A DNA stretch of 44,999 nucleotides, from assembly GCA_949290865.1 (NCBI GenBank), contig CASETM010000087.1, forward strand, positions 1-44,999, read 5' to 3'. The position numbers and the translations under genes were made by a program. Numbering within the stretch: position 1 is the stretch's first letter; each line of letters opens with the position of its first letter. Below, one piece after another: positions 7,120 through 9,934 of the stretch. Source of the DNA: an uncultured Bacillota bacterium (GTDB lineage: Bacteria; Bacillota_I; Bacilli_A; Erysipelotrichales; Coprobacillaceae). Below the pieces are notes generated by a model that made no database searches, was not told the DNA's origin, and was given only the letters and a program-made list of their open reading frames with translations.

Positions 7120-7164
7120 TTGAAGTCATTATCCGGTAAGATATTTATATACCCCATAGGGGTG
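7120..7164 (+). promoter_or_regulatory. copA promoter and CsoR-type operator
   Basis: TTGAAG (7120-7125) and a -10-like TATTTA (7142-7147) are followed immediately by the GC-rich pseudo-palindrome ATACCCCATAGGGGTG (7149-7164). This closely matches the C-tract/G-tract operators of CsoR copper repressors. The operator sits just downstream of the -10 and 11 bases before the copA ATG, a placement suited to repression by the csoR product encoded at the end of the same operon. Confidence 0.75.
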
Positions 7165-7175
7165 GGAGGTGTTAA

Positions 7176-9671
7176 ATGAAAAAGAAGTATGATGTCATGG
7201 GCATGACCTGCAGTGCCTGCAGTGCTCATGTTGATAAAGCAGTACGAAGTTTACCTGGCATCAGAGATGTCAATGTTAATCTGCTGAATAACTGCATGAC
7301 AGTTGAATATGATGAAAATTCTCTTTCTGATCAGGATATCATTAAAGCGGTTGATCAGGCGGGATACCAGGCACAGCTGGAACATCAGAAAAATGAGGAT
7401 AAGACTATTGAAAAGGAAAATGAAAATAAGAAAAAAAATCTGATTTTTTCATTCGTGTTTTTAATTCCTTTGTTTTATCTGTGTATGGGACATATGATTG
7501 GTTTACCCATACCAGCAATATTCAGTGGCCATGAAAATATGATGATCTTTGCTCTGACACAGCTGTGTCTGGTGATTCCGATTATGATCTTGAATCGCGT
7601 CTACTATCTTCGTGGTTTTAAAGCCTTGTTTAATCGCAGTCCTAATATGGATACGCTGATTGCCATGGGCTCGACCGCAGCTTTTGGTTATAGCCTTTAT
7701 GCGACATTTATGATGGCCTATTTTATCGGTAGAGGTGATCTGACCAGTGGTCATCAGTATATGATGCAGCTGTATTATGAATCAGCAGGAATGATTTTGA
7801 CATTGATTTCGTTAGGAAAATATTTAGAATCACGTTCTAAACAGAAAACTTCAGAAGCAATCGAAAAACTGATGAAACTGATGCCAGCAACTGCTGTGGT
7901 CCTGGTGGATGGTCAGGAAACAGAAATGAATATTGATGATGTAGAGGTAGGGCAGATCGTAGTGGTTCGTTCTGGACAGAGTATTCCTCTTGATGGCAAG
8001 ATCATTGAAGGACATGGGTCCATCGATGAAGCCATGATTACTGGAGAAAGTCTTCCTGTTGATAAAGATGTTGGTGATCAGGTCATCGGTGCAACAATGA
8101 ATCGAGATGGCTATATGCTTATTGAAGTCAAAAAGGAAAAACAGGATACAACATTATCGAAAATTATTGAACTGGTTGAAGAGGCAGGGTCTTCAAAGGC
8201 ACCGATTGCCAAATTGGCAGATCAGATCAGTGGTATCTTTGTACCAGTTGTGATGATGATTGCTCTGGTGACTTTTCTGTTATGGCTGACCTTAGGTACT
8301 CAGACCTTCCATTTTGCTTTGACATGTGGGATTTCAGTGCTGGTTATTTCCTGTCCGTGTGCTCTTGGTCTGGCTACGCCAACAGCTATCATGGTTGCTA
8401 CAGGCAAAGGAGCCAGTCTTGGGGTTCTGGTCAAATCGGCAGAACATCTGGAACTATTATCGAAATGTGATACGGTCATTTTGGATAAGACGGGAACGAT
8501 AACTCAGGGGAAACCGCAGGTTACTGATATTTTTCCGATAGGCAAAGAAGAAGATGAACTGATGAAGTATGCGGGTATGATAGAACAGTATTCAAAACAT
8601 CCTTTGGCTTTGGCTATTCAGGAATATGTGGCTGCTCATCAGCTTACGACTGAAAAACTAGACCGTTTTGAAATGATACCAGGACAGGGGCTGGTTGGCT
8701 ATTGGCATGATGAAGTAATCCTGGCAGGTAATCAGAAACTGATGAATGCATATGATGTTGATCTTTTGGAAACTGAAGAATTGTTTGCTGCTTTGGCCAG
8801 TCAGGGCAAAACACCGTTATTTTATGCTTTACAAGGAAAACTGATTGGCCTGATCGTAGTTGGAGATGTGCTAAAGGAATCAAGTCAGCAGGCGATTCAA
8901 CAGCTTAAAGCGATGAATCTAGCAGTCTGTATGTTGACGGGAGATAATAAGGTGACGGCTGATAGCATTGCCAAAACATTGGATATTGATGTCATTGCGG
9001 AAGTGCTGCCACAGGATAAAGAAAGACATATTCGTCAGATGCAGGAAAAGGGGCATCGTGTCATTATGGTCGGTGACGGTATCAATGATGCACCGGCATT
9101 GGTCAGATCTGATGTAGGTATAGCGATGACTTCAGGTTTGGATATTGCCGTTGATGCGGCTGATATTGTTTTGATGAAAAATGATCTGCAGGATGTCGTT
9201 GCAGCAATCGAACTGTCAAAAGCAACGATAAAAAATATCAAAGAAAATTTGTTCTGGGCTTTTTTCTACAATGTGATTGGTATACCGATTGCAGCTGGTC
9301 TGTTCTATCCGATTTTTGGCTGGCTGCTTGATCCGATGTTTGGAGCGGCAGCGATGTCACTTAGTTCGCTGTTTGTTGTCAGTAATGCTCTAAGACTAAG
9401 ATTATTCAAGCCAGAACATGCTCAAAGCAGTTCTGTGGATAATAATGAACATAAAGAAAAGGAGAATAAGAAAATGAAAAAAATGAATATCGAAGGAATG
9501 ATGTGTCCAAATTGCCAAAGACACGTTGATAAAGCTTTAAATGGTATTGAAGGTGTCAAAGCAACTGTTGATCTGGAAAATAATTGTGCCTATATTGAAG
9601 GAAATGTTGATGAAGCAGTTTTGATCCAGGCTGTTGAAGAAGCTGGTTACCAGGTCAAAGGATTTGAATAA
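7176..9671 (+). CDS. copA: copper-exporting P1B-type ATPase with C-terminal CopZ-like domain
   Basis: An 831-residue heavy-metal ATPase. The N-terminal HMA domain carries C12-x2-C15 (GMTCSACSAHV). The transmembrane CPC metal site is at 393-395, the phosphorylated aspartate D437 is in DKTGTIT, and HPLA and GDGINDAP follow. The last helices carry YN and MSLSS, typical of Cu(I) P1B-1 pumps. A second HMA domain (about 767-831, C777-x2-C780) is attached after the last helix by a charged linker, an unusual place. It looks like a copZ chaperone gene fused in frame. A strong ribosome-binding site lies within the linker. The csoR gene follows with a 1-base overlap. Confidence 0.95.
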   Translation: MKKKYDVMGMTCSACSAHVDKAVRSLPGIRDVNVNLLNNCMTVEYDENSLSDQDIIKAVDQAGYQAQLEHQKNEDKTIEKENENKKKNLIFSFVFLIPLFYLCMGHMIGLPIPAIFSGHENMMIFALTQLCLVIPIMILNRVYYLRGFKALFNRSPNMDTLIAMGSTAAFGYSLYATFMMAYFIGRGDLTSGHQYMMQLYYESAGMILTLISLGKYLESRSKQKTSEAIEKLMKLMPATAVVLVDGQETEMNIDDVEVGQIVVVRSGQSIPLDGKIIEGHGSIDEAMITGESLPVDKDVGDQVIGATMNRDGYMLIEVKKEKQDTTLSKIIELVEEAGSSKAPIAKLADQISGIFVPVVMMIALVTFLLWLTLGTQTFHFALTCGISVLVISCPCALGLATPTAIMVATGKGASLGVLVKSAEHLELLSKCDTVILDKTGTITQGKPQVTDIFPIGKEEDELMKYAGMIEQYSKHPLALAIQEYVAAHQLTTEKLDRFEMIPGQGLVGYWHDEVILAGNQKLMNAYDVDLLETEELFAALASQGKTPLFYALQGKLIGLIVVGDVLKESSQQAIQQLKAMNLAVCMLTGDNKVTADSIAKTLDIDVIAEVLPQDKERHIRQMQEKGHRVIMVGDGINDAPALVRSDVGIAMTSGLDIAVDAADIVLMKNDLQDVVAAIELSKATIKNIKENLFWAFFYNVIGIPIAAGLFYPIFGWLLDPMFGAAAMSLSSLFVVSNALRLRLFKPEHAQSSSVDNNEHKEKENKKMKKMNIEGMMCPNCQRHVDKALNGIEGVKATVDLENNCAYIEGNVDEAVLIQAVEEAGYQVKGFE
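9457..9671 (+). other. possible internal translation start for a free CopZ-like chaperone
   Basis: Inside copA, AAAAGGAG (9457-9464) lies 9 bases before an in-frame ATG at 9474. Starting there would give a 65-residue protein that is exactly one HMA domain with MxCxxC (GMMCPNC), the size of a normal CopZ. The sequence features are seen directly; use of the start is inference. Confidence 0.4.
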
Positions 9672-9934
9672 TGAAGGCCGATCAGAAACAGATTACACGT
9701 CTGCTCAAGACGGCGAGAGGACAGATTGATGGAATTTTGAAAATGGTTGAAGAAGACCGTTATTGTATTGATATTTCTCATCAGCTGATGGCCTGTGAAG
9801 CGGTTTTGAAAAAGGCAAATAAAGAAATTTTAGGAGCACATATGAAGCATTGTGTTCATGATGCCATCAACAGTGATGATCAGGATAAAAAGATCGATGA
9901 GATGATCAAAGTCATCGACAGCCTGTTAAAATAA
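9671..9934 (+). CDS. csoR: copper-sensing repressor CsoR
   Basis: An 87-residue all-helical DUF156 repressor. The Cu(I) ligands C32, H57 and C61 are present with the CsoR spacing C-x24-H-x3-C, which distinguishes it from the formaldehyde and nickel sensors of the family. Copper binding releases it from DNA. Its ATG overlaps the copA stop codon (TAATG), so it is co-translated with copA, and it should bind the operator at 7149-7164. Having the repressor as the last gene of the operon it controls gives negative feedback. Confidence 0.93.
   Translation: MKADQKQITRLLKTARGQIDGILKMVEEDRYCIDISHQLMACEAVLKKANKEILGAHMKHCVHDAINSDDQDKKIDEMIKVIDSLLK

Follow-up and report, generated by a model that had tools for sequence, protein, structure and literature searches.

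Copper pumps and copper chaperones are textbook partners, and the copA gene of Escherichia coli is notable for making both by frameshifting, its free chaperone being the N-terminal HMA domain obtained by a -1 frameshift. In Archaeoglobus, one metal-binding domain of CopA is C-terminal. Citing Meydan 2017 and Drees 2017, PMC9548414 states that programmed frameshifting lets E. coli copA give rise to a free copper chaperone as well as the pump, in agreement with the sequence-only reading of our locus, which had named that gene as a precedent for dual coding. An in-frame internal start that gives a C-terminal domain beside the full protein has been shown experimentally for SctQ/YscQ (PMC4295842), and Archaeoglobus CopA has two metal-binding domains (PMC11970713).

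Here, we describe a copA gene from the genome of an uncultured member of the Coprobacillaceae, located in a stretch of 44,999 nucleotides that was analysed as a whole (the window). This gene very probably encodes both a pump with a tethered chaperone and, via internal initiation, a free CopZ of 65 residues (7.2 kDa). It would thus resemble E. coli copA/CopA(Z) in drawing a pump and a free copper chaperone from one gene; unlike the E. coli gene, with its N-terminal HMA domain and its frameshift, it would give the C-terminal HMA domain, and internal initiation is the proposed route. The principle would be the same as in SctQ/YscQ, although protein and role are unrelated and the copA start is a predicted one. 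Separate copA-copZ operons (L108 and L179 in our set; CopZ of B. subtilis and E. hirae) have the same partners, the same position of the Shine-Dalgarno sequence (SD) and a homologous CopZ, and the gene order of L108 is that of the window. In such operons a stop codon stands between the genes, whereas in the window the frames are joined and the domain is proposed to occur both tethered and free. CopA of Archaeoglobus fulgidus is a Cu(I) ATPase and has two metal-binding domains (PMC11970713). As in the predicted window protein, these are terminal HMA domains; unlike the window's genome, A. fulgidus has a separate CopZ. Searches of the open-access literature turned up no description of an internal copA start.

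The copA locus and its putative nested frame

The following features are relevant here:

7150-7164, no strand assigned: palindrome TACCCCATAGGGGTG, candidate CsoR operator, seen in the sequence
7176-9671, + strand: copA, predicted P1B-1 Cu(I)-exporting ATPase of 831 aa (open reading frame, TIGR01511, Pfam, motifs)
9457-9464, + strand: putative internal Shine-Dalgarno sequence AAAAGGAG in a K/E-rich linker, anti-SD energy -8.0 kcal/mol
9474-9476, + strand: in-frame internal ATG, 9 nt past the SD (ATG, GTG or TTG in orthologues)
9474-9671, + strand: putative nested copZ, a CopZ-like HMA protein corresponding to the C-terminal domain of CopA (Pfam HMA, kinship, PDB)
9671-9934, + strand: csoR-like copper-sensing repressor gene (PF02583, 94.5 bits)

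CopA is composed of an N-terminal HMA domain, a transmembrane core and a C-terminal HMA domain beyond the last membrane segment. Pfam finds two HMA domains, E1-E2_ATPase and Hydrolase; the copper-translocating ATPase profile TIGR01511 scores 605 bits against a cut-off of 397; and TGES, CPC and DKTGT occur at residues 289, 393 (in the transmembrane core) and 437, respectively. These three motifs and the copper-ATPase profile mark the protein as a predicted P1B-1 Cu(I)-ATPase, and the linked csoR-like gene is consistent with the predicted transport of Cu(I). The ATG of the latter gene overlaps the stop codon shared by copA and the nested frame (TAATG, 9669-9673). The palindrome sits immediately 5' of the copA SD, and we take it to be a candidate operator from what is generally known of CsoR operators. 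The sequence-only reading took a C-terminal HMA domain on copA to be unusual; our survey of orthologues contradicts this, such domains being common among Erysipelotrichales, Clostridia and other groups.

The linker codons AAA GAA AAG GAG AAT AAG AAA ATG hold AAAAGGAG and end at the ATG at 9474, which opens a frame of 65 codons closed by the TAA at 9669-9671. Re-reading of the sequence confirmed each coordinate of the original proposal, i.e., the SD, the 9-nt gap, the ATG, the 65 residues and the MxCxxC motif. The predicted product of 7.16 kDa carries the motif MMCPNC, and PF00403 (HMA) covers residues 4-60 of 65 with 49.1 bits (cut-off 24.8). Its best match in the PDB is 2roe, and CopZ (6ff2) and a copper chaperone (1cpz) are also matched; the HMA fold of the C-terminal domain is not in doubt. 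With one HMA domain, MxCxxC and a length within about 65-70 aa, the predicted protein has the form of CopZ/Atx1-like chaperones. It scores below the cut-offs of the NCBIfam CopZ equivalogs (NF047957, 72.9 versus 85; NF033794, 43.7 versus 95; NF033795, 40.2 versus 91), and we regard it as CopZ-like by descent and outside those equivalogs.

A search of the window's genome, which is 99% complete, did not find a free CopZ gene elsewhere. Besides CopA, HMA matches comprised two in one large ORF of P-type ATPase size and a weak one in a small protein that is rich in Cys and apparently anchored in the membrane. This protein, whose HMA domain is degenerate, adjoins an apparent feoB in the window's genome (L003, contig C8, about 9700-9894), and several relatives have frames of 121-141 aa that resemble it.

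Other routes to a short product were considered and rejected. For a frameshift of the E. coli type, there is no CCCAAAG slippery site; the heptamer A AAA AAT is unconserved, with the -1 stop 33 codons on. This heptamer is found at 7433-7439, directly past the N-terminal HMA domain, and has no early -1 stop. As for a short transcript from an internal promoter, the region contains 9 promoter-like matches, compared with 9.1 in shuffled sequences.

Conservation of the putative internal start

Within the window, 3 of the 363 internal Met codons (37 ORFs) reach an anti-SD energy of -7.5 kcal/mol or lower, the copA site among them, and synonymous shuffling of this gene alone gives p = 0.027 for that energy. 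For a broader comparison, CopA orthologues were picked on protein similarity only (order-level genomes, class-level genomes and contigs of named genomes found via the HMA peptide), which gave 200 distinct CopAs of the fused type, with Bacillota, Actinomycetota and Spirochaetota among the groups represented. The ATG to be tested in each gene was selected blind to the SD, as an in-frame codon 6-13 codons before the last MxCxxC. Such an ATG is present in 182 of the 200, in 122 of these exactly 9 codons before MxC. Anti-SD pairing of -7 kcal/mol or stronger is found at 83% of the 182 sites; of the remaining internal ATGs of these genes, 4433 in number, 2.0% pair as strongly.

When the seven codons upstream of the ATG were recoded synonymously, according to each gene's own codon usage, the mean energy was -4.8 kcal/mol, compared with -8.7 kcal/mol at the actual sites, and 96% of sites lay below their own null. 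The corresponding Wilcoxon p-value of 3e-30 is indicative only, because the rows are related. Taken gene by gene, the shuffle test reaches significance in only 28-34% of cases, the strength coming from the ensemble of related rows; the order-level set alone has the same outcome (-8.5 versus -3.9). At the strong sites, the Glu codon at -4, which supplies the GAG of the SD, is GAG or GAA at a ratio of 94:9, although over the full length of the order-level genes GAG accounts for only about 18% of Glu codons. Local mRNA folding is weak at the site (-1.3 kcal/mol per 45 nt versus -8.2 at other ATGs), in part because of its A-rich composition. K/E-rich linkers predispose to AGGAG-like codons and unfolded mRNA, for which the synonymous test is only a partial control, because the linker residues may themselves be under selection. 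The anti-SD is canonical in the genus and family of the window's genome; the genome's own 16S anti-SD is absent from the assembly, and the canonical copy was read in a genus mate.

What is conserved appears to be a start rather than a peptide. The residues across the SD vary (KE, QE, EE, TE, GE, GD, GG) while the SD is constant, and relative to the codons the SD is found in either of two phases, NAG GAG or AAA GGA GNN. Four genes have replaced the ATG and kept a strong SD, with GTG in L089, L193 and L249 and TTG in L104. In the window's genus, a weaker SD (AAAAGGAA, -4.9 kcal/mol) is found in three of six species, and none has lost it. Where two or three HMA domains stand in tandem at the C-terminus, SD and start are found only at the last one in nine genes (L074, L079, L081, L105, L106, L110, L118, L119, L123). 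Four others (L052, L053, L055, L057) have a start before the first of two such domains, with a weaker SD in L053 (-5.8) and L057 (-4.8); this start would free a tandem two-domain chaperone. The orthologue check suggested by the sequence-only reading thus shows an SD and a start codon that are conserved beyond codon constraint, being kept as linker residues change.

Split relatives, separate copZ genes and taxonomic range

In several split relatives, among them L108, L130, L134, L140, L174 and L179, a separate copZ is present whose SD directly follows the copA end or overlaps it; in L108, AAAAAAGGAGAAATAGAAATG is followed by copZ and then csoR. All 13 split CopZs compared are nearer to C-terminal than to N-terminal HMA domains. 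Together, these observations support a shared descent of the C-terminal domain and a copZ gene, by fusion or by fission. The label fused or split switches about 6-8 times on a FastTree phylogeny of the CopA core, in which many inner branches are weak. Of the earlier idea that copZ was fused to copA and its SD kept, common descent and SD conservation hold up, and the direction may be either.

Five fused CopAs without a usable start (L072, L095, L107, L162, L163) were picked out before their flanks were inspected. A free small HMA gene exists in the genomes of four, directly after copA in three; in the fourth, a free HMA protein of 56 residues is encoded away from copA. L162 has neither an internal start nor a free copZ. 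Of the 180 start-bearing fusions whose downstream sequence is long enough to tell, 1 has an adjacent HMA gene. The HMA genes adjacent to start-less CopAs belong to G219 (L107, L282), G043 (L095, L283) and G382 (L163); that of G043 encodes a two-HMA protein, and its start overlaps the copA end.

Fusions with the SD are found in Erysipelotrichales and in further members of the class, in Clostridia (Lachnospiraceae, Oscillospiraceae, Acetobacterium) and in Actinomycetota (Eggerthella, Ellagibacter). They also occur in metagenome-assembled genomes labelled Spirochaetota and Elusimicrobiales, labels that may be wrong. The ribosomes of Bacteroidia make no use of SDs (PMC9976891, PMC8710568), and three Bacteroidia-type CopAs with a C-terminal HMA domain (L251, L257, L271) keep the Met and have no SD, as expected for this reason. 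L270 (Bacteroidota) has neither Met nor SD, and L256 (labelled Bacteroidales) has the SD; with so few cases, Bacteroidota are a suggestive control and no proof.

Alternative readings and the proposed dual product

How else might the SD-like element be explained? It could be an unused relic of a copA-copZ fusion, the C-terminal HMA domain working only in its tethered state. In favor of this explanation, there are split relatives, and the tree calls for several changes of state, so some fusions may be recent. However, deep fused clades retain SD and start despite the turnover of linker residues, synonymous positions are biased toward the SD, the SD is kept with alternative start codons, and loss of the start accompanies a free copZ gene. 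We thus consider a relic improbable. Alternatively, the AGGAG codons might program a pause during insertion of the last membrane helices and have nothing to do with initiation. In most cases, the element does lie past the final transmembrane segment. A pause would need no start codon at a fixed spacing, though, and a start codon is retained, be it ATG, GTG or TTG. In tandem tails, moreover, the element precedes the last HMA domain, distant from the membrane. This reading deserves very little credence. Equally hard to credit is that a free chaperone arises by proteolysis of the full pump in an exposed linker: the linker is charged and looks disordered, as a cleavage site might, but cleavage leaves the conservation of synonymous positions and start codons unexplained. 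The conservation pattern thus argues against all three.

We favor internal initiation and envision the following scenario. Ribosomes starting at 7176 would make the full pump with its tethered C-terminal CopZ-like domain, and others would bind the internal SD at 9457-9464, start at the ATG at 9474 and make the free 65-residue CopZ. The free form would ferry Cu(I), presumably to the pump and perhaps also to the CsoR whose gene comes next, a role deduced from that of CopZ elsewhere. The original claim that one frame makes pump and chaperone is supported by the sequence elements themselves, by the conservation of SD and start, by complementarity with free copZ genes and by the kinship of the domain to separate CopZ. 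That ribosomes initiate there in the cell, in what ratio the two proteins are made and what the free one does are inferred.

On a larger scale, we think it probable that in several phyla copZ is nested in copA, maintained by selection and internally initiated to give a tethered and a free chaperone, that lineages switch between split, nested and duplicated states, and that genomes with a separate copZ tend to lack the nested start. The nested copZ would have been overlooked because annotation lists one protein. A corollary is that the comparative signature, i.e., an in-frame SD and start codon complementary to a separate gene, could find other nested genes. If true, the arrangement would be a second natural route by which one gene gives pump and chaperone, independent of the E. 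coli frameshift and apparently widespread.
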